Below, piece by piece: positions 11,678 to 51,671 of a DNA stretch of 64,000 bases. Location: contig NZ_CP019333.1 in assembly GCF_002163875.1 (NCBI RefSeq), positions 2,782,864-2,846,863 on the forward strand, written 5' to 3'. Positions within the stretch are counted from its first letter, which is position 1. Every line of letters starts with the position of its first letter. Origin of the DNA: Gilvibacter sp. SZ-19. Lineage in GTDB: Bacteria > Bacteroidota > Bacteroidia > Flavobacteriales > Flavobacteriaceae. The notes below the pieces were generated by a model, which saw only the letters and a list, made by a program, of their open reading frames with translations, was not told the DNA's origin and made no database searches. The translations under genes were made by a program, and so were the position numbers.

Positions 11678-12772
11678 ATGAGAAAAATTGTATTACTAAT
11701 CCTGGCCGTAGGTCTCGCGAATCTTACTCATGCACAAGACCTTCCGACCAACCCAGAACCCGGAAAGTGCTATGTACGTTGTACTACACCAGACGTTTAT
11801 GTAAATGAAGATGTGCAAGTAATGGTTAAGCCTGCTTACAAGGTGTTAAAAACTATTCCTGCACAGTATGAAACCGTAACCGAGCGTGTTATGGTGAAAG
11901 CTGCTGGAAAGAAGTTAGTAGTTGTACCAGAAAAATAGGGAACTGAAACTATTTCTTATGTAAAGAAACAAGGAGCTTCTACACTACGTGTTATTCCTGC
12001 AAGCTTTTCTACAGATTCAGAAACACTTGAGATCAAACCAGCATACGCACAATGGGAGCTAGGAACTGCCGCTCCTGACTGTGCTTCTGCAAATCCAGAC
12101 GACTGTCGTTACTGGTGTTACAAAGGGTACCCAGCCGAATACGAAACCGTATCTGTACAGCGTTTGGCTAACGATGCTAGCACTACATCAACTCCAGTTG
12201 CCGAAGTTCCTGCTACCTATACAAAGCGTGTGGTTATTGAGCCAGCTCGTGTTGAAGAGGTAGAGATTCCTGCAGAGTATGCAAACATCACTAAGACTGT
12301 TTTGGTAAAAGACGCACAAGTTGTTGAAGAAACTATTCCAGCTGTTTACAGAACGATCACTCGTGAAGTTTTGCAAACTAAAGGTGGACTTACTACTTGG
12401 AAAGAAGTAGAGTGTGAATTGCTAGAGTACAACGATCTTAACATCAACTGGAACCTTGGTTCAGCTACTTTGACTGCCGAGGCTAAGCGTGAGATCGACA
12501 GCAAATTACTACCTGTATTGAAAGACGGTGTTCGTGTAGAGATCGCATCTCACACAGACTCTAGAGGTACTGCTTCTAGCAACAAAGACCTTTCAGAGCG
12601 TCGTGCGCAAGCGGTAACTAACTACCTGATCTCTAAAGGGATCAACGCTAGCCGTATCGTTTCTAACGGTTACGGAGAGTCTCAGCTACTTAACCGTTGT
12701 GCTGATGGAGTTTCTTGTTCTGAGCGTGAGCACAGAGCTAACCGTAGAACTCAATTTAGAATTATCCAGTAA
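11678..12772 (+). pseudogene. OmpA-family outer membrane protein interrupted by in-frame TAG
   Basis: One continuous frame of 365 codons, apart from a TAG at 11936-11938 (codon 87). A signal peptide (ends THAQ) is followed by repeated P-A-x-Y-x-T-V units (such as PAQYETVTERVMVK and PAEYANITKTVLVK), then a C-terminal OmpA peptidoglycan-binding domain (about 256-364, with SHTDSRG and NRRTQFRI). Aligning the repeats puts the TAG where a Tyr normally sits (P-A-Q-Y versus P-E-K-stop), so a single TAT/TAC to TAG change explains it. Everything after the stop is intact and shows no decay. It is either a fresh nonsense allele, a sequence error or read through. A terminator follows. Confidence 0.85.
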
Positions 12773-15882: not shown

Positions 15883-15890
15883 TAACTTTG
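15883..15890 (+). promoter_or_regulatory. -7 box TAacTTTG for the cysteine-synthase-like gene
   Basis: A consensus -7 box with about 59 bases of leader before ATG 15950. A TTTG lies 12 bases upstream, which is too close for a standard -33. Confidence 0.5.
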
Positions 15891-15949: not shown

Positions 15950-16990
15950 ATGAAGGACAAAATCCAAGCACATGACAACGTGCTTTCTCTTATTGGGAAC
16001 ACACCGCTTGTCAAATTGAGCAATATTACTGCCGATATTCCCGGTAATTTCTACGGAAAAGTTGAAGCTTTCAACCCCGGACACTCTTCTAAAGACCGCA
16101 TCGCCTTACACATCATTGAGGAAGCAGAGCGCCAAGGTATTTTAAATCCTGGTGACACCATTATTGAGACTACCTCTGGTAACACTGGTTTTAGTATTGC
16201 TATGGTGAGTATCATTAAAGGGTATGAATGTATCCTAGCGGTGAGTTCAAAGTCGAGTGGTGACAAGATCGACATGTTGCGCGCCATGGGTGCACAAGTT
16301 TATGTTTGCCCCGCTCACGTAGCTGCAGACGATCCGCGTTCGTACTACGAAGTGGCCAAGCGTTTGCACAATGAGATCAAAGGATCGGTTTATATCAATC
16401 AGTATTTCAACAAACTAAATACTGCCGCTCACTACAAGACCACAGGCCCAGAGATCTGGGAACAAACCGGTGGACAGATCACGCATTTGGTTGCTTGTAG
16501 CGGTACCGGCGGAACTATTTCTGGTACGGCTCAATATTTGAAGGAGCAAAATCCAAATATTCAGATCGTGGGTATTGATGCTTACGGATCTGTCTTAAAG
16601 AAATACCATGAGACCCGCGAGTTCGACAAGAACGAGATCTATCCGTATCGCATAGAAGGTCTTGGTAAGAATTTGATTCCTACGGCTACAGATTTTGACA
16701 GCATTGACCAGTTTGTAAAGGTAACAGACGAAGAAAGTGCGCATAAAGCTCGTGAGTTGGCCACTAAAGAAGGTTTGTTTGCCGGATATACCTCCGGAGC
16801 GGCTCTTCAAGGTGTTCAACAATTAGCAGAAGAAGGATACTTCAAAAAAGACGATGTAGTGGTCGTGATTTTACCAGACCACGGTTCTCGATATATGAGC
16901 AAAGTCTACTCAGACAAGTGGATGAAAGAGCAGGGCTTCTTTGACGCTCAGCACGAAGAGGTGGTTGGGAACATACAATACGTCAAATAA
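15950..16990 (+). CDS. Cysteine synthase / cystathionine beta-synthase-family PLP enzyme, candidate cysteate synthase
   Basis: A fold-type II PLP enzyme of 346 aa. PLP-lysine Lys48 lies in NPGHSSKDR, where housekeeping cysteine synthases have PGGSVKDR. The substrate loop [11 protein letters not shown] and the phosphate-binding GTGGTISG are present, and there is no C-terminal CBS domain. The altered lysine loop and the neighbouring alpha-oxoamine synthase suggest a specialised role: O-phosphoserine plus sulfite to L-cysteate for sulfonolipid synthesis, rather than ordinary cysteine synthesis. The family assignment is seen; the cysteate role is inference. It is followed by a terminator. Confidence 0.85.
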
Positions 16991-17009
16991 GACCCTTAAA
17001 CAAAATAGC

Positions 17010-17038
17010 TAAGCCCTGCATTTGCGGGGCTTTTTTAT
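17010..17038 (+). terminator. Intrinsic terminator
   Basis: Stem AAGCCCTGC / GCGGGGCTT (one T-G wobble), 4-base loop, then a T-run. It separates the cysteine-synthase-like gene from the next gene and covers the in-frame ATG at 17022, arguing against that start. Confidence 0.8.
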
Positions 17039-17082
17039 GGGCAGGAATTCAGGAAAAACCCTGATAATTAGGAATAAATTTA

Positions 17083-17090
17083 TACTTTTG
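17083..17090 (+). promoter_or_regulatory. -7 box TActTTTG deciding the start of the alpha-oxoamine synthase
   Basis: A consensus -7 box that puts the transcription start near 17095-17097. That is downstream of the in-frame ATG codons at 17022 and 17037 and just upstream of TTG 17115. Confidence 0.55.
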
Positions 17091-17114
17091 CCCGGAAACT
17101 TTAATAGCAAAGAT

Positions 17115-18377
17115 TTGGCAAAGGATTTATTCGAAAAGATTTACAGAGATAAAGGACCTCTAGGGAAATGGGCGGAAGCTGCAGAAGGATATTTTGTATT
17201 CCCAAAATTAGAAGGGCCTATCGGTAATCGAATGATGTTCAACGGCAAGGAAGTCATCACCTGGAGTGTGAACGACTACTTGGGATTGGCGAATCACCCA
17301 GAAGTTCGTAAGGTTGATGCAGAAGCTGCTGCACAATACGGTTCGGCTTATCCAATGGGTGCTAGAATGATGAGTGGTCATACCAACCTCCACGAACAAC
17401 TTCAGAATGAGCTTGCGGCATTTGTAAACAAGGAAGCTGCTTATTTGTTGAACTTTGGTTACCAAGGAATGGTTTCTACCATCGACGCCTTGGTTTCTAA
17501 AGACGACGTTATCGTTTATGATGTAGACGCTCACGCCTGTATCATTGACGGGGTGCGTTTACACCTTGGTCAGCGTTTTACTTACAAGCATAACGATATG
17601 GAAAGTATCGAAAAGAACTTGAAGCGTGCTGAGAAAGTAGCAGAGAAGACCGGCGGTGGGATCCTTTTGATCTCCGAAGGTGTTTTTGGAATGCGCGGTG
17701 AACAAGGAAAGCTAAAAGAGATCGTAGCCCTAAAGGAAAAATACAACTTCCGTTTGTTCGTTGACGATGCTCACGGTTTTGGGACACTTGGAAAAACTGG
17801 TGCTGGAGCAGGTGAGGAGCAAGGCGTACAAGACGATATCGACGTGTACTTCGCTACTTTCGCTAAGTCTATGGCATCTACTGGAGCTTTTATCGCAGGA
17901 GATGAAGAGATCATCAATTATTTGAAATACAACCTGCGTTCGCAAATGTTCGCCAAGTCGTTACAAATGCAGTTGGTTGTAGGTGCTTTGAAGCGTTTGG
18001 ATATGATGCGTTCAAGCACAGAATACAAAGACAAGCTTTGGGCCAATGTAAACGCCTTACAAGGTGGTTTACGGGAGCGTGGTTTCGACTTAGGAACTAC
18101 CCAGAGTTGTGTGACTCCGGTATATCTTAAAGGAAGTATTCCAGAAGCTATGGCTTTGGTTAAGGACCTACGTGAAAATCACGGAGTATTCTGTTCTATA
18201 GTGGTTTACCCAGTGATACCTAAAGGATTGATTCTACTTAGAATGATCCCTACGGCATCGCACACCATGGAAGATATTGACCAGACTTTAGATGCATTCT
18301 CTGCCATTAGAGAGCGATTGGAGAACGGTACTTACAAAAGACTATCTGCTGCATTAGCAGCCTCTATGGGCGAGTAA
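17115..18377 (+). CDS. Alpha-oxoamine synthase (serine palmitoyltransferase-like), candidate cysteate acyltransferase
   Basis: A PLP-dependent acyl-CoA:amino-acid C-acyltransferase of 420 aa, the first step of sphingoid or sulfonolipid base synthesis. PLP-lysine Lys251 is in TFAKSMAST; DAHACIIDG, VDDAHGFGTLG and the C-terminal VVYPVIPKGLILLR segment are typical. I chose TTG 17115 because it follows the promoter and yields an MAKDLFEK-type N-terminus; upstream ATGs lie in a terminator. If the upstream neighbour makes cysteate, this enzyme would condense it with a fatty acyl-CoA to 3-ketocapnine. Serine palmitoyltransferase or glycine C-acetyltransferase activity remains possible. Confidence 0.85.
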   Translation: MAKDLFEKIYRDKGPLGKWAEAAEGYFVFPKLEGPIGNRMMFNGKEVITWSVNDYLGLANHPEVRKVDAEAAAQYGSAYPMGARMMSGHTNLHEQLQNELAAFVNKEAAYLLNFGYQGMVSTIDALVSKDDVIVYDVDAHACIIDGVRLHLGQRFTYKHNDMESIEKNLKRAEKVAEKTGGGILLISEGVFGMRGEQGKLKEIVALKEKYNFRLFVDDAHGFGTLGKTGAGAGEEQGVQDDIDVYFATFAKSMASTGAFIAGDEEIINYLKYNLRSQMFAKSLQMQLVVGALKRLDMMRSSTEYKDKLWANVNALQGGLRERGFDLGTTQSCVTPVYLKGSIPEAMALVKDLRENHGVFCSIVVYPVIPKGLILLRMIPTASHTMEDIDQTLDAFSAIRERLENGTYKRLSAALAASMGE

Positions 18378-18397
18378 TTATCGTATGAGATAAAAAT

Positions 18398-18430
18398 AGA
18401 AAAGCCACCAGATCGGTGGCTTTTTTTTAT
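18398..18430. terminator. Bidirectional intrinsic terminator
   Basis: Stem AAAGCCACC / GGTGGCTTT, 5-base loop, flanked by A-run and T-run. It is shared by the convergent oxoamine synthase and GNAT genes. Confidence 0.85.
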
Positions 18431-19545
18431 AGGTCTTTTCTAAAAGTGCTGCGTTCTTTGTGTTGCTGCGGACCGTAATCCTTCCAAAGCAACTGAACAG
18501 CTGTATTCTCAGCGAGTTCCGGGTTGGTCTCCACTTCTTTAATCCCTTTATTGTTAAAGAGCTGCTGCATTTCTGCAAATATGATAGCCGTAACTCCCTT
18601 ACCTTGATATTCAGGGTCTATACCAATTAAATAGAAGGCGGCGGTGTCGTTCTTCTTTTGCGCTTGCAATAAATGATACCATCCAAAAGGGAATAGTTTG
18701 CCGTTGGCCTTCTTTAAGGCCTTAGAAAAGCTAGGCATTACCACAGAAAAGGCGATCAGTTTTCCGTCGGAATCCTTAATGCATGTAATATAGTCTGGGT
18801 GGATAAAGTTGAAATACTTCTCCTTGTAATAGTCTATCTGATACTGTTGTATCGGCACAAAGGTCTGTAAACTGTTATAGGTATTGTTCAGTAACCCGAA
18901 CATATCATCCACATAAGGGATGATCTCCTTTTTGGACTTAAAACGGATCACTTCCAATTCGTACCGTTTTTTAATGATCGCTGAGAACTTTTTAACCTTT
19001 TCCTTCATCTCTGCCGGGATCTGCATGCGATACTCGACCCAAGTAGCCTGTTTTTCAAAGCCTAGCTTTTGGAAATGTTCGGCATAGTAAGGGTAGTGGT
19101 ACCAAGTGATCATGGTATTGAGTTCCTCATATCCCATGGTAAGTATACCGGCCTTTTCCATATTAGAGAATCCTACAGGACCTTCCACATATTCTAAGTT
19201 GTGGCTTCGCCCGATCTTGTTTACTTCTTCTAATAAAGCCTTGGTAACCTCCAGATCATCGATCATATCTAGCCAGCCGAAGCGCATCTTTTTCTTACCC
19301 TGCTCATTGATCTCCAAATGATTTACAATAGCAGCTATGCGTCCAACTACCTTGTTGTTCTTATAGGCCAAGAAATAATGTGCCTCTGCATTTTTAAAAA
19401 CAGGGTTCTTTTCTTGACTCAGGGTTTCTAGTTCGTCATTGATCAATGGCGGAACCCAATATTTACAGTCCTTGTAGAGTGTAAACGGAAACTTGACGAA
19501 GGTTTTAAGGTCTTTTTGGTTGGTTATTTTCTTGACTTCGATCAT
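18427..19545 (-). CDS. Large GNAT-fold acyltransferase, candidate sphingolipid/sulfonolipid N-acyltransferase
   Basis: 372 aa, much longer than a simple acetyltransferase. The GNAT acetyl-CoA-type motif lies near the C-terminus (YLIGIDPEYQGKGVTAIIF), and the N-terminal half carries the FPFTLYKDCKYWVPPL and VEGPVGFSNMEKAGIL segments of a Bacteroidota family. From memory, this family resembles the GNAT-type bacterial ceramide synthase described in Caulobacter. With the convergent alpha-oxoamine synthase, that suggests N-acylation of a capnine or sphingoid base. The fold is confident; the substrate is inference. It is co-transcribed with the upstream outer membrane protein through an ATGA overlap. 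Confidence 0.75.
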   Translation of the reverse strand: MIEVKKITNQKDLKTFVKFPFTLYKDCKYWVPPLINDELETLSQEKNPVFKNAEAHYFLAYKNNKVVGRIAAIVNHLEINEQGKKKMRFGWLDMIDDLEVTKALLEEVNKIGRSHNLEYVEGPVGFSNMEKAGILTMGYEELNTMITWYHYPYYAEHFQKLGFEKQATWVEYRMQIPAEMKEKVKKFSAIIKKRYELEVIRFKSKKEIIPYVDDMFGLLNNTYNSLQTFVPIQQYQIDYYKEKYFNFIHPDYITCIKDSDGKLIAFSVVMPSFSKALKKANGKLFPFGWYHLLQAQKKNDTAAFYLIGIDPEYQGKGVTAIIFAEMQQLFNNKGIKEVETNPELAENTAVQLLWKDYGPQQHKERSTFRKDL

Positions 19546-20934: not shown

Positions 20935-23394
20935 ATGGCCGCCTTAAAAAAAGCGCTTCCTCACCTTGTTGTTTTAATTTTATTTATCCTCGCCTCGCTG
21001 ATCTATTTTAGCCCCGTACTGCAAGGCGAAACCATATTTCAGAGCGACATTGCTCAGTTTAACGGTATTGCTAAACAACAGCGTGATTATAAAGCCGCGA
21101 CAGGAGAGGAGACCTATTGGACCAATGGTGCTTTTGGCGGAATGCCAACCTATCAGATGGGAGCGCGTTATCCGAATCACCTCATTAAAAAATTAGACCT
21201 TACGCTGCGGTTCTTACCACGGCCAGCAGACTATCTGTTTCTATACCTGATCAGCATGTATGTTTTATTGCTGGTTATGAAAGTAGATTACAAATTGGCT
21301 TTCCTGGGTGCGCTCGCCTTTGGCTTCTCTACCTACCTTATCATCATACTCGGGGTGGGGCATAACTTAAAAGCGCATGCTATCGCCTATATGCCTTTAG
21401 TGCTCAGTGGAATAATTCTGACCTTTAGGGGTAAGTATCTCTGGGGATTTGCACTCACAGCTATTGCCATGGGCTTGGAACTGGTGGCCAACCATTTTCA
21501 GATGACCTATTATCTTTTGTTATTGGTTGTGGTCTTGGGCTTGGCGTATTTAGTAGATGCCTTCCGCAGAAAACAGTTGCCGCATTTCTTTAAATCCGTA
21601 GGGATACTCTGTGCTGCGGTGCTTTTGGCCATCGGGTTCAACAGTGCAAATATTTTAGCTACGGCCGAATACGCTCCTTATTCCATGCGTGGAAAAAGTG
21701 AGCTCACAATTAAGCCAGACGGAACTCCCAAAGAAGTGACCAACGGCCTACCTTATGACTATATCACCGAATACAGTTACGGCAAGCTGGAGAGCTTTAA
21801 TTTAATGGTACCGCGTTTTATGGGTGGAGGTTCTGGAGAACCTTTGCCAGAAGAAAGCCAACTTATTGATGCATTGCGCGGCTTAGGAATTCCGCCTCAA
21901 GAAGCCAACAATATCTTGCGACAAGTGCCTTTGCCCATGTATTGGGGTGATCAACCCATAGTAGAAGCACCTGCATATGTTGGGGCTATAGTGGTCTTTT
22001 TAGCACTTTTAGGATTCTTTTTAATAAAGGGTCGACTGCGCTGGTGGCTCTTGGGAGGTATACTGCTGAGTCTTTTATTGTCTTGGGGAAAGAATTTTGC
22101 CTTCCTGACCGAATTCTTTGTAGACTATGTTCCGCTTTACAACAAGTTTAGAGCGGTTAGTTCTATACAAGTCATTATTGAGCTACTGCTTCCTATAGCC
22201 GCTGTTATTGGACTGCACCAACTCTTTAATGATTTCAACACCAAAGAGGCCAGACGAAAGGCCTTGTTGATCTCCGGAGGAATTGTCTCCGGTTTACTGC
22301 TTGTTTTTTACCTTTTAGGATCCAGTCTGTTTGACTTCCAAGCTCCTTATGATGCCGATGTTGCAGCGGCCCTTGGAGAGGCTGGTCCTGTACTAATTGA
22401 GGGAATACAGGCCGATAGGATAGCCGTGTTCAAAGCAGACAGCCTGCGTTCTTTAGGCTTGGTTCTGGCAACTATAGCGGTACTTTTTGGCTTGCTTAGA
22501 AATGCAATTAAAGAACCTTTGGCTGTTGGCCTATTGGCGGTCTTGTTATTGATCGATTTGGTAGGAGTGGACAAGCGTTATGTAAACGAAGAAGACTTTG
22601 TAGACACGCGTGTTATGGAGCAGCCCTACCAACGCAATGGCGCCGATATTCAGATAGAGCAAGATAAAGATGGCTTCTTTAGAGTCTACGACATGACCAC
22701 AAGTGCCTTTACCAGTGGCCGTGCGAGCTTTTTCCACAATGCGCTGGGTGGTTACAGTGCAGTTAAAATGGGGCGTATTCACGATCTGTACGAGTTCTAC
22801 CTGATGGGAGAACAACCCAATATGAACATCATCAATATGTTCAATGTGCGTTATTTGATTCGCTTTGGAGATAATGGCGGGCCTTATGCGCAGCGGAATT
22901 CCGGTGCCAATGGCAATGCCTGGTTTGTCACCGATTACGACTTGGTAGCTTCGGCAGACGAGGAGATTCAGGCTTTGGCTAATATCAATACCAAACAAAA
23001 GGCTGTAATTCACCAAGAATTTGCGGGTATGCTCAGTGGGAAGCGTTTTGCTGCGGATTCTACCGCAACCATTACACTCAAGGAGTTTGCTCCGAATCGA
23101 ATGGTTTACAACAGCAAGAGTACCACCGAAGGCTTAGTGGTCTTTTCTGAGATGTATTACAAGCCGGGTTGGAAATTAACGATAGACGGACAAGAGGCCG
23201 ATTATTTTAGAGCGAATTATACCCTTAGAGCAATGGTCTTGCCTGCTGGGGAGCATGAGATCGTTTTCTCCTTTGAGCCAGAAGTGGTACAGCGCGGCAG
23301 CATGCTCAGCTTGCTATCTGCAGGAATCTTTGTTTTGGTACTTCTGGGCTTTGGTTATTGGAACTACAGAAATTCGCAGTCTGAATCAGCATAA
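20935..23394 (+). CDS. YfhO-family polytopic membrane protein
   Basis: 819 aa with about a dozen hydrophobic segments, an extracytoplasmic loop between TM1 and TM2 (the EETYWTNGAFGGMPTYQMG region) and a C-terminal soluble domain followed by a last TM near 790-812. This is the GT-C-like YfhO architecture; in Firmicutes YfhO helps glycosylate lipoteichoic acid. Here it is directly joined (no spacer) to a glycosyltransferase gene, so a role in moving sugars to an envelope glycan or glycoprotein is plausible. Confidence 0.88.
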   Translation: MAALKKALPHLVVLILFILASLIYFSPVLQGETIFQSDIAQFNGIAKQQRDYKAATGEETYWTNGAFGGMPTYQMGARYPNHLIKKLDLTLRFLPRPADYLFLYLISMYVLLLVMKVDYKLAFLGALAFGFSTYLIIILGVGHNLKAHAIAYMPLVLSGIILTFRGKYLWGFALTAIAMGLELVANHFQMTYYLLLLVVVLGLAYLVDAFRRKQLPHFFKSVGILCAAVLLAIGFNSANILATAEYAPYSMRGKSELTIKPDGTPKEVTNGLPYDYITEYSYGKLESFNLMVPRFMGGGSGEPLPEESQLIDALRGLGIPPQEANNILRQVPLPMYWGDQPIVEAPAYVGAIVVFLALLGFFLIKGRLRWWLLGGILLSLLLSWGKNFAFLTEFFVDYVPLYNKFRAVSSIQVIIELLLPIAAVIGLHQLFNDFNTKEARRKALLISGGIVSGLLLVFYLLGSSLFDFQAPYDADVAAALGEAGPVLIEGIQADRIAVFKADSLRSLGLVLATIAVLFGLLRNAIKEPLAVGLLAVLLLIDLVGVDKRYVNEEDFVDTRVMEQPYQRNGADIQIEQDKDGFFRVYDMTTSAFTSGRASFFHNALGGYSAVKMGRIHDLYEFYLMGEQPNMNIINMFNVRYLIRFGDNGGPYAQRNSGANGNAWFVTDYDLVASADEEIQALANINTKQKAVIHQEFAGMLSGKRFAADSTATITLKEFAPNRMVYNSKSTTEGLVVFSEMYYKPGWKLTIDGQEADYFRANYTLRAMVLPAGEHEIVFSFEPEVVQRGSMLSLLSAGIFVLVLLGFGYWNYRNSQSESA

Positions 23395-24714
23395 ATGGAA
23401 CCTAAGAAAGTTCTGGTAATTACCTATTACTGGCCGCCAGCTGGTGGGCCAGGTGTACAGCGCTGGTTAAAGTTCTGCACGTATTTGCCCGAATTTGGTA
23501 TTAAGCCAACGGTCTACACTCCAGAGAATCCGTCGTATCCTATCGTCGATGAGGCCTTAGTTAAAGAGGTTCCCGTAGACTTGGAAATTTTAAGACATCC
23601 TATTTGGGAGCCATACGCAATAGGTAAACGCGTGGGCAAAGACGCTACACAGACCTTGAGCAAGGGCATTATAGACGAGGATCCTTCTCTTTTAAAGAAG
23701 TTCTTATTGTTTGTTAGAGGTAACTTCTTTATTCCTGATGCGCGTAAGGCCTGGGTAAAACCATCGGTCAAGTTTTTAAAGCGTCATTTAGAAGAGAACA
23801 GTTATGATACAGTAGTAACGACAGGGCCACCGCACAGTGTTCATCTTATTGGCTTGCAACTTCAAAAGGAGTTGGGAATTCCTTGGGTTGCAGATTTTAG
23901 AGATCCCTGGACAACTATCGGCTACCACAAATCCCTGCGTTTATTGCCTTGGAATGCCAGAAAGCACAAAAAGCTAGAGGCAGCTGTGCTGCAAGCAGCA
24001 GATCATATCTTGGTGACCAGTCCATCAACAAAAAAGGAATTCGAAGAAATATCTAAGCGGCCAATTAACGTCATTACCAACGGTTATGACAGGTCTAATA
24101 AACCGGAAAGTCAAATTGATCTTGATAAAAGTTTCAGTATAGCGCATATCGGTTCACTTTTGGCCAAGCGCAATCCAGAACCGCTCTGGAAGATGCTAGC
24201 TTATTTATGCGCCAATGACGCTGCCTTTAAAAAAGATCTGAAACTCGTCTTTGCCGGGGTGGTTGCAAAGGAAGTGAAAGACTCCTTAAGAGCCCACGGT
24301 CTTCTCGAACATGCTGAGTTTAAGGGCTATGTAGGGCACAGTGAGGCTATAGCCTTACAGCATCAAAGTCAATTGCTTTTATTGCTCGAGATAAACTCAC
24401 CAGAAACACGTGCCATCTTGCCCGGAAAGCTGTTTGAATATATGATGGCCAAAAGACCAATACTAGCCTTAGGGCCTAAAGGCAGTGATATTAAACAACT
24501 ATTGGAAGAGTCGGGTAGTGGTGAATTCTTTAATTACGATGAACTCACAACAGATTATTTGGGGGCCTATCTTTTAAAGGCCTATGGGGCTTATAAAAAG
24601 CAATCCCTTGAATTAGAGCAACAGGCCATTGCTAAATTCGACAGAAAAGCACTTAGCAAACAATTGGCTGCAGTCCTTAAAAGCGAAACCCTTGCCAGAC
24701 AAAGTTCGTCTTGA
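23395..24714 (+). CDS. Glycosyltransferase, GT4-like (GT-B fold)
   Basis: 439 aa. The N-terminal Rossmann half opens VLVITYYWPPAGGPGVQRW with the glycine-rich loop, and the C-terminal half has VFAGVV and the PGKLFEYMMAKRPILALGP segment that binds the nucleotide-sugar donor in GT4 enzymes. Its start abuts the YfhO stop codon exactly, indicating translational coupling and a shared pathway. Donor and acceptor are unknown. Confidence 0.87.
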   Translation: MEPKKVLVITYYWPPAGGPGVQRWLKFCTYLPEFGIKPTVYTPENPSYPIVDEALVKEVPVDLEILRHPIWEPYAIGKRVGKDATQTLSKGIIDEDPSLLKKFLLFVRGNFFIPDARKAWVKPSVKFLKRHLEENSYDTVVTTGPPHSVHLIGLQLQKELGIPWVADFRDPWTTIGYHKSLRLLPWNARKHKKLEAAVLQAADHILVTSPSTKKEFEEISKRPINVITNGYDRSNKPESQIDLDKSFSIAHIGSLLAKRNPEPLWKMLAYLCANDAAFKKDLKLVFAGVVAKEVKDSLRAHGLLEHAEFKGYVGHSEAIALQHQSQLLLLLEINSPETRAILPGKLFEYMMAKRPILALGPKGSDIKQLLEESGSGEFFNYDELTTDYLGAYLLKAYGAYKKQSLELEQQAIAKFDRKALSKQLAAVLKSETLARQSSS

Positions 24715-49631: not shown

Positions 49632-50585
49632 CTATCCAAGCAAACTCACAATCTGTTCTGCAAGCTCTGTTCCGATTCGATCTTGAGCCTCTTGGGTTGC
49701 TGCACCGATGTGTGGTGTCAAAGAGACCTTTGGGTTCATCAAGACCTTGATCGCTGGTTTGGGTTCTTCCTCAAAGGTGTCTAAGCCGGCGAAAGCGAGT
49801 TTTCCGCTGTCCAAAGCCTCTATAAGAGCCACTTCGTCTATCACCCCGCCGCGAGCGGCATTGATAAGAGCAGCACCCTCTTTCATTTGTGCCATTTCTG
49901 CCTTGCCGATCACATAATCTTTTTGTGCAGGTACGTGTAGGGTAACAAAATCAGCATTTCTCAATACCTGATCCATAGTGGTTGTTTTGATCTCAAAATC
50001 TAAAGATCGACCGTCAAAGAAATCCAAGTGTAGCGTAGCTGCTTCGGTAAACTTGTCATGTGCAAGTACTTTCATCCCGCAACCAATGGCGATCTTCGCA
50101 ACGGCTTGGCCAATTCGTCCAAAACCTATGATCCCCAAAGTCTTACCTCTTAATTCGGCACCTTTGGCATAGCTCTTTTTTAGATCTTTGAATTTGGTAT
50201 CACCATCAAGGGGCATATTTCTGTTGGAGTCATAAAGGTATCGCACCCCAGTGAAAAGGTGAGCAAAAACCAATTCAGCTACTGAGGCAGACGACGCCGC
50301 CGGAGTGTTGATCACGTGCAATCCTTTCTCGCGGGCATAATCCACATCAATATTATCCATACCAACTCCGCCGCGACCAATAAGCTTAAGGCTAGGGCAG
50401 GCATCTATAAGGTCCTTTCTAACTGTAGTTGCAGATCGGACAAGCAGACCTGTTATCTCATGCTCGTTGATATAATTCTCTAATTGCTCTTGAGCCACTT
50501 TAGTGGTGATCACTTCATAGCCTGCCGCTTCTAAAGCGTTAACTCCACTTTGTGAAATACCGTCATTGGCTAAAATCTTCTTCAT
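49632..50585 (-). CDS. serA: D-3-phosphoglycerate dehydrogenase (short form)
   Basis: First step of serine biosynthesis, oxidising 3-phosphoglycerate. 317 aa with no C-terminal ACT domain, the short form common in Bacteroidota, so it should lack ACT-based serine feedback. Rossmann motif GIIGFGRIGQAVAKIA, the catalytic Arg region NAARGGVID and the active-site His in LTPHIGAATQEAQDR are present. It starts 18 bases after the serC stop; the operon order serC-serA follows the pathway in reverse. Confidence 0.9.
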   Translation of the reverse strand: MKKILANDGISQSGVNALEAAGYEVITTKVAQEQLENYINEHEITGLLVRSATTVRKDLIDACPSLKLIGRGGVGMDNIDVDYAREKGLHVINTPAASSASVAELVFAHLFTGVRYLYDSNRNMPLDGDTKFKDLKKSYAKGAELRGKTLGIIGFGRIGQAVAKIAIGCGMKVLAHDKFTEAATLHLDFFDGRSLDFEIKTTTMDQVLRNADFVTLHVPAQKDYVIGKAEMAQMKEGAALINAARGGVIDEVALIEALDSGKLAFAGLDTFEEEPKPAIKVLMNPKVSLTPHIGAATQEAQDRIGTELAEQIVSLLG

Positions 50586-50603: not shown

Positions 50604-51671
50604 TTAAGCTGTTCTTTGAAATTCTTGCATTACATCGACCAAAACCTGTACGCTGGCCAGTGGTAAGGCGTTGTACATAGAAGCGCGATATCCTCCAACA
50701 CTGCGGTGTCCGTTCAGGCCATTAATGCCTGCATCTTGCCACATCTTGTTGAAACGATCTGCTTGTGATTCATCGTTAATGGTAAAAGTGGCATTCATAG
50801 TAGATCGGTCTGCCGGATCTGCCACAAAACCTGTAAAGAGTTCATTGCTGTCGATCTCATTATATAACAGAGACGCTTTTGCCTCGTTGATCTGGGCTAT
50901 GGTTGCAACACCACCTTGCGCCTTTAACCACTCCAGGGTCAACATAGAGGTGTATACTGCAAATACTGGCGGCGTGTTAAACATACTGTCTTTTCCAATA
51001 TGTACCTGATAGTCCAACATAGAAGGAATGCTGCGCTGAACTTGCCCAAGGATTTCCTCTTTTACAACTACCAAAGTAGTTCCTGCTGGTCCCATATTCT
51101 TTTGAGCCCCGGCATATATAAGATCGAATTGACTAAAGTCTAATGCACGTGAAAAGATATCACTACTCATATCGCATACCAATGGCGCATCCGTTTGCGG
51201 AATTTCTTTGATCTGAGTACCGAAAATGGTGTTGTTGGTAGTTAGGTGCAAATAATCCAAACCTGAGGGTATCTCATAGGCTTTTGGAATATAATTGAAA
51301 TTCTTGTCCTTGGACGAAGCTACTTCAACCAGATCTCCAAAGAGCTTAGCTTCTTTAATTGCTTTAGAGGACCAAGTTCCTGTATTGAGATAACCGGCTT
51401 TGGTGTTTAGTAAATTGTAAGCTACCATTAGGAACTGCATGCTGGCGCCGCCTTGCAAAAACAAGGCCTGGTAACCTTTACCAGTTAAACCGAGATGTTC
51501 CAAAGCCAGGCTTCTGGCGTTTTCCATTACGGCAACAAATTCCTTACTTCTATGTGAGATCTCGATTATAGATAGCCCTATTCCGTTGTAATCTACCACT
51601 GCATCTGCAGCTTTTTGCATAACAGATTGAGGTAAAATACATGGACCGGCGCTAAAATTGTGTTTCTGCAT
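50604..51671 (-). CDS. serC: Phosphoserine aminotransferase
   Basis: Transaminates 3-phosphohydroxypyruvate to O-phosphoserine. 355 aa; opens NFSAGPCILPQSV and has the LFLQGGASMQF phosphate-binding block and the PLP-lysine context AGAQKNMGPAG. O-phosphoserine from this step would also feed a cysteate synthase if the 15.9-kb gene has that role. Two direct repeats lie upstream of its start. Confidence 0.96.
   Translation of the reverse strand: MQKHNFSAGPCILPQSVMQKAADAVVDYNGIGLSIIEISHRSKEFVAVMENARSLALEHLGLTGKGYQALFLQGGASMQFLMVAYNLLNTKAGYLNTGTWSSKAIKEAKLFGDLVEVASSKDKNFNYIPKAYEIPSGLDYLHLTTNNTIFGTQIKEIPQTDAPLVCDMSSDIFSRALDFSQFDLIYAGAQKNMGPAGTTLVVVKEEILGQVQRSIPSMLDYQVHIGKDSMFNTPPVFAVYTSMLTLEWLKAQGGVATIAQINEAKASLLYNEIDSNELFTGFVADPADRSTMNATFTINDESQADRFNKMWQDAGINGLNGHRSVGGYRASMYNALPLASVQVLVDVMQEFQRTA

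Follow-up and report, generated by a model that had tools for sequence, protein, structure and literature searches.

The window analysed here, a 64,000-nucleotide stretch of the single 3.10-Mb contig that makes up the genome of Gilvibacter sp. SZ-19, very probably encodes the enzymes for the first two steps of capnine (sulfonolipid) biosynthesis, CapA and CapB, whose genes lie side by side and are faced by a gene for a tandem GNAT acyltransferase. The core of an original prediction for this locus is thereby supported. Sulfonolipids, as described in passages of PMC11211663 and PMC10191378, are outer-membrane lipids of Bacteroidota with reported links to gliding, to effects on host immunity and to the development of choanoflagellates. 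The capA-capB core is already known from related gliding bacteria: passages of PMC10191378 and PMC12927429 cite Liu et al. (2022) for a CapA-CapB-CapC capnine pathway, with CapA and CapB from Capnocytophaga ochracea and CapC from Ornithobacterium. The window shares with this pathway the CapA and CapB families and the predicted chemistry and differs from it by a terminator-like site between capA and capB, a remote candidate reductase and a CerS-family GNAT facing capB. Genes have been reported for three sulfonolipid steps, and the locus offers one concrete candidate for N-acylation.

Three open reading frames (ORFs) lie at the predicted coordinates (15950-16990, + strand, 346 aa; 17022-18377, + strand, 451 aa; 18427-19545, - strand, 372 aa). 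With the start of the second placed further downstream, they are read as follows:

15950..16990, + strand: capA, predicted cysteate synthase, a pyridoxal phosphate (PLP) enzyme with loop PGHSSKDR
17115..18377, + strand: capB (CFAT/SulA), a PLP-dependent alpha-oxoamine synthase
18427..19545, - strand: YghO/CerS-family tandem GNAT, proposed as the N-acyltransferase for capnine or 3-ketocapnine

In the proposed pathway, CapA would replace the phosphate of O-phosphoserine by sulfite to give cysteate, and CapB would condense cysteate with an acyl thioester (acyl carrier protein [ACP]-bound in the characterized homologue) to give 3-ketocapnine. A short-chain dehydrogenase/reductase (SDR) encoded elsewhere in the genome would probably reduce 3-ketocapnine to capnine, and the convergent GNAT would probably N-acylate the base to a sulfobacin-type sulfonolipid, both of these roles being assigned from homology and context only. 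It should be noted that the pathway is predicted in this organism from its genes and that the characterized sequences available for comparison are few, which weighs against the reading of the locus as a whole.

The capA-capB pair

The product of 15950-16990 had been described as a cysteine-synthase-family enzyme with an altered lysine loop, and the ORF, the loop and the model score all agree with this. Against the curated NCBIfam model CysteaSynCapA (NF053679) it scores 644.2 bits (cut-off 600), and the 24 shown of the 38 other NCBIfam families that it matches all stay below their own cut-offs; its placement is thus in the CapA family, of which by these scores it is a member, and not within housekeeping CysK, the outcome that had been named as contradicting the prediction. 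Among solved chains, 9k2p is its nearest relative (518 bits, 65% identity). Because 9k2p has the loop VGHSAKDR, all 15 CapA proteins readable by pattern (of 17 in the set, window included) carry PGHS[STA]KDR, and the nearest paralogue in the same genome has PGNSVKDR, the altered loop is, at the level of sequence, not a chance feature; cystathionine beta-synthase (CBS) 4ofx has GGS at this place, and His for the second Gly (GHSxKDR) may be diagnostic of CapA. The paralogue, a separate CBS/cysteine-synthase-like protein, is 54% identical and reaches 464.5 bits on the CapA model, below the cut-off, and the remaining three superfamily proteins of the genome are far more distant; a tentative labelling of the genome's third PALP protein (L003) as CysK was withdrawn, as its sequence looks like that of a threonine/serine dehydratase. 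In the CapA tree only two of nine inner branches are starred and one row is very long, so that the family assignment rests on the curated model. The substrates, O-phosphoserine and sulfite, are predicted from characterized homologues.

The alpha-oxoamine synthase predicted directly downstream of capA is indeed adjacent and of that family, with a terminator-like site between the two genes and a start that is likelier at 17115 than at the ORF's first codon. Its score is 712.6 bits against 28eh, a cysteate C-fatty acyltransferase (CFAT), and 573.7 bits against 7u7h, compared with 244.9 bits against serine palmitoyltransferase (SPT), and the curated models place it in the alpha-oxoamine synthase superfamily, all below their cut-offs. 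In the tree it groups with 28eh and 7u7h, apart from SPT; it is thus nearest to characterized cysteate acyltransferases, not to SPT, Kbl or BioF, and we regard 17115-18377, on these comparisons, as a member of the CapB family. The chain 7u7h is, in our reading of the residues described in parts of PMC9304779, SulA of Alistipes finegoldii (alfi_1224), for which the same source notes that SPT has Ala at the position of Lys281, a residue that may tell the two kinds of enzyme apart. Window CapB has equivalents of all five SulA residues compared (K251, K281, H140, N53 and R376), the K281 equivalent being K312 (ORF numbered from 17022), 30 residues past the PLP lysine K282. This Lys is found in 61 of 61 CapB-like proteins examined, window included (59 of 60 capB stretches, L177 and the window; L147 is excluded, its ORF lying outside the cluster), and is Ala in nine SPT-type enzymes. 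A search of the genome with CapB returned three such enzymes: CapB itself, a glycine C-acetyltransferase over its cut-off, with Asn at the K281 position, and a third labelled BioF-like without test, with Thr; a placement of CapB among glycine C-acetyltransferases, the other outcome that had been held to contradict the prediction, is thus not what the tree gives, and the genome has an enzyme of its own for that role. Unlike the window, Alistipes makes cysteate with an archaeal-type synthase and not with CapA, according to passages of PMC10191378.

The chemistry proposed originally for capnine fits the CapA and CapB families, except that acyl-CoA had been taken as the acyl donor: the characterized enzyme uses acyl-ACP, and acyl-CoA is a poor substrate for it, as described in the relevant part of PMC9304779. 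The substrates of window CapB are likewise predicted from its characterized homologues. That the locus instead makes cysteine and ceramide, with 15950-16990 as a housekeeping cysteine synthase or CBS and 17115-18377 as an SPT, is in our view very improbable. The superfamilies are shared, and the two products do score 396.5 bits on cysta_beta and 305.4 bits on SerpalmtaseCFB, respectively, but these scores are far under the cut-offs (510 and 640) and those for CapA and CFAT are far higher; moreover, CapB has Lys at the SPT Ala position, and the genome holds the separate CBS/cysteine-synthase-like paralogue.

To place the pair in its phylum, we used a sample of 296 Bacteroidota genomes, 30 of which form the family of the window (f1, probably Flavobacteriaceae). 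CapA over its cut-off occurs in exactly these 30 genomes, and CapB, at E 1e-120 or better, in 106 genomes that include all 30; 36 of the 106 carry a more distant form at about 50% identity (families f23 and f44). A search of named genomes gave 581 confirmed CapB stretches, of which the best 80 were used. Among these 80, the closest CapB proteins come from metagenome-assembled genomes (MAGs) of a Flavobacteriaceae member (95%), a Bacteroidia member (93%) and Altibacter (91%), and those of Aequorivita and Ulvibacter are near 90%; apart from several unclassified Bacteroidetes MAGs, the 80 are named as Flavobacteriaceae or as genera of that family, which is the ground for the probable assignment of f1. 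In named loci, capA lies directly upstream of capB in 73 of the 75 with enough flank. None of the eight stretches fetched from genus g2, probably Flavobacterium, has capA close to capB. CapB-like enzymes were also seen at L138-L147 (f23, f44), L123-L137 and L148-L157, where the stretches fetched, reaching at most ∼10 kb to each side, gave no CapA match; all of them that entered the residue count have the K281 lysine, L147 standing outside it.

Gene starts and transcription signals

The signals between the three genes are:

17011..17032, + strand: terminator-like site between capA and capB; 9 pairs, 6 of them G-C, and a T run (consensus scan and sequence reading)
17083..17090, + strand: TANNTTTG box 5' of capB, possible Bacteroidota -7 element (motif match; no -33 match seen there)
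18400..18424, no strand assigned: terminator-like stem in the gap where capB and the GNAT gene converge (listed on the - strand by the scan; a + side T run is seen by eye)

The ORF of capB is open from TTG 17022. Because this codon falls within the terminator-like site at 17011-17032 and homology to relatives sets in only at about codon 34, TTG 17115 appears the likelier start. The site at 17011-17032 is the first of 17 listed by the consensus terminator scan, against 7.4 in shuffles of the same region. The TANNTTTG box was read by what we take to be the Bacteroidota -7 consensus; boxes of this type number 22 on the + strand across the whole window, and a similar one lies at 15883, 5' of capA. 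The promoter scan gave 6 sites, fewer than its shuffles (14), and no promoter was drawn from it. A single operon of all three genes was rejected, since the terminator-like site ends capA and the GNAT gene is convergent; each of the three is probably transcribed as a unit of its own. The box at 17083 together with TTG 17115 would suit a transcription unit of capB's own.

The facing GNAT as a candidate N-acyltransferase

The third gene does face the oxoamine synthase, as a convergent - strand gene whose product is confirmed as a GNAT by the curated model PF00583, and its description as ceramide-synthase-like also held: in a set of eight sequences it matches E. coli YghO over its full length (27% over 379 aa, E 6e-47), and YghO is again a match in a plasmid collection (E 1e-38). 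Parts of PMC9386255 list yghO and Caulobacter CC_1154 together as the N-acyltransferase gene for ceramide, and CC_1154 is named CerS in PMC11324152, passages of which place cerS in an operon apart from the remaining ceramide genes, much as the window GNAT has its own predicted transcription unit. By its homology to YghO, the window GNAT belongs to the YghO/CerS family. NCBIfam and PHROGs hold no defining family for it (weak matches to rimI, 25 bits, and a phage acetyltransferase, 21 bits), and a sequence search for solved relatives gave none, two matches at E 0.11 being taken as chance. The AlphaFold model (mean pLDDT 92.7) has its best structural matches among tandem GNATs (7q3a: Z 22.8, root mean square deviation [rmsd] 3.4, 303 aligned) and also matches N-myristoyltransferases (1iyl: Z 15.4, rmsd 5.1, 289 aligned); such a predicted fold does not by itself name the acyl group.

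We give an even chance to the proposal that this CerS-family tandem GNAT is the missing sulfonolipid N-acyltransferase of the window's family, acting on capnine or 3-ketocapnine; the open-licence literature searched yielded no named gene for the N-acylation of capnine. The proposal draws first on the company that the family keeps. The neighbours of yghO on the fetched plasmid are genes for an aminotransferase-class PLP enzyme, an acyl carrier protein, an epimerase/dehydratase and an acyl-AMP ligase, and a Sphingomonas plasmid relative has a similar neighbourhood; the 17 kb fetched around a Roseomonas plasmid relative hold no alpha-oxoamine synthase, unlike the surroundings of the E. coli, Sphingomonas and Aureispira relatives. 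The SPT model is matched at E 1e-150 in 36 of the 296 Bacteroidota genomes, in 10 of them over its cut-off. In 23 of the 26 SPT genomes with a listed GNAT place (the other 10 have none among those listed), the family GNAT lies directly downstream of the SPT-type gene on the same strand, and in three it lies elsewhere; one of the 23 (L161, G033) has a close orthologue of the window GNAT (42%) beside an SPT over its cut-off. Second, no SPT-model match at E 1e-150 is found in the window's genome or in any of the 30 family genomes, although 29 of these keep a GNAT of the YghO/CerS family. The SPT partner of a bacterial ceramide synthase is thus lacking in the window's genome, and the GNAT is therefore not filed as a ceramide synthase; unlike in CerS systems, its partner would be CapB, the only long-chain-base condensing enzyme found by the search with CapB, and its acceptor capnine or 3-ketocapnine. 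By coordinates, the GNAT gene of the 30 family genomes converges on capB at a distance of no more than 1 kb in 22, lies apart in seven and is absent from one.

Adjacency to capB was nevertheless dropped as a proof of function, as the whole pop-capA-capB-GNAT-omp-membrane protein block is syntenic, and the association of the close GNAT with close CapB across genomes (odds ratio 9.3, P 6e-13) was given little weight, the genomes being related. We put only a little short of even the explanation that the product of 18427-19545 is unrelated to sulfonolipids, acylates another amine and lies beside capB through conserved gene order, and a series of observations weighs on its side. Where capB lies elsewhere, as in the six family loci fetched around a GNAT remote from it, the GNAT still has the omp and membrane-protein genes of the block beside it, and its place next to capB may therefore reflect passive gene order. 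In named loci with enough flank the GNAT follows capB in 43 of 73, and Mesonia, Gillisia and Salegentibacter loci (L252, L253, L266) keep capA-capB and omp with no GNAT between. Outside the family, no gene recurs beside the GNAT in most fetched loci, save four f2 loci that share gene order. A condensing enzyme adjoins distant family members in 11 of 20 fetched stretches and is missing beside the GNAT in nine, and the 40 stretches fetched where a close orthologue lies away from capB include just one with an adjoining SPT and one with a CapB-like gene at a distance of 7 kb. Almost every genome sampled from the phylum has a member of the wider GNAT family (285 of 296), and CapB genomes without SPT hold it no more often (59 of 63). 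Close CapB (E 1e-150) occurs in 70 of the 296 genomes and close GNAT (E 1e-80) in 66, with both in 39: 31 of the 70 are without a close GNAT orthologue, and of the 27 close-GNAT genomes without close CapB six hold the distant CapB-like form and 21 lack any CapB-like match at E 1e-120. When 25 of the 34 loci without a flanking GNAT were searched genome-wide, 19 had a GNAT elsewhere and six gave nothing at E 1e-5 (one genome each of four genera, namely Psychroflexus curvus, Mesonia mobilis, Salegentibacter lacus and a Gillisia MAG, and in addition an Aquimarina and a Flavobacteriaceae MAG; the MAGs may be incomplete, and sample genome G053 and the P. curvus genome, probably one genome, are counted as one observation). 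Finally, a quick tree groups the window GNAT with two f23 proteins (support 83) and not with other family members. Against this explanation stand the inclusion in the GNAT family of yghO, from a ceramide-type cluster, and of SPT-adjacent members, and the retention of one such GNAT in a genome where CapB is the sole long-chain-base condensing enzyme found. The N-acylation role predicted for the GNAT stays conditional and faces real counter-evidence.

Identity to the window GNAT at this locus is 73-81% in the eight of L238-L247 that have the gene and ∼50% in most others (L251-L263), and CapB varies much less across these loci. Three f23 genomes (L176, L178, L179) hold GNAT copies at 54-59%, which hints at lateral transfer.

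A pathway that ends here at free capnine, with the GNAT acylating something else, seems unlikely to us. Free capnine does occur in Capnocytophaga lipids, according to passages of PMC9304779, and some capA-capB genomes have no GNAT of this family; against this, the N-acylated sulfobacin A is reported in a part of PMC9859067 as putatively identified in Leeuwenhoekiella parthenopeia, whose congener L. polynyae has capA-capB and a GNAT 66% identical to the window's. Our literature search on sulfonolipids in the GNAT-less genera returned nothing useful. Should the GNAT be the N-acyltransferase after all, it would be a ceramide-synthase relative acting on capnine in lineages that use CapB instead of SPT, and the sampled GNAT-less Psychroflexus, Salegentibacter, Gillisia and Mesonia would hold free capnine or a replacement enzyme; any sulfonolipid maker without an orthologue would need another enzyme. 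The candidate has relatives that can be grown and manipulated, and the GNAT-less capA-capB genomes provide a natural control.

Remaining pathway genes and neighbours

Eight of the genome's 18 SDR-type matches were scanned against families, and for one of them, ∼280 kb from the window, the best family was 3-ketodihydrosphingosine reductase (KDSR; 262.3 bits, below the cut-off of 400). The distance of this KDSR-like SDR, the candidate 3-ketocapnine reductase, fits reports, in passages of PMC11211663, that the genes for 3-ketocapnine reductase lie apart from those for the first two steps of the pathway; co-expression of CFAT and a reductase in E. coli has been published there. CysD is over its own cut-off, and a CysH-like protein is present, under its own. 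The serA-serC pair that the original prediction placed at 50 kb is real, with SerC well over its cut-off and the SerA-type protein a short form under its own:

49632..50585, - strand: SerA-type D-3-phosphoglycerate dehydrogenase, short form, general serine pathway (TIGR01327, 290 bits, cut-off 454)
50604..51671, - strand: SerC phosphoserine transaminase, which makes O-phosphoserine, general serine pathway (NF003764, 467.8 bits, cut-off 253)

The SerC gene is 32 kb from capA-capB. None of the SDR, CysD, CysH-like and SerC proteins is specific to sulfonolipids.

Beyond the GNAT-omp pair, 20935-24714 holds genes for a large membrane protein, which has no NCBIfam match and is part of the family's conserved block, and, as judged by eye, a glycosyltransferase-like protein. 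On the other side of capA, the ORFs 11678-11938 and 12164-12772 share a reading frame; judged by eye, they have similar repeated motifs and an OmpA-like end, and they are possibly one interrupted gene.

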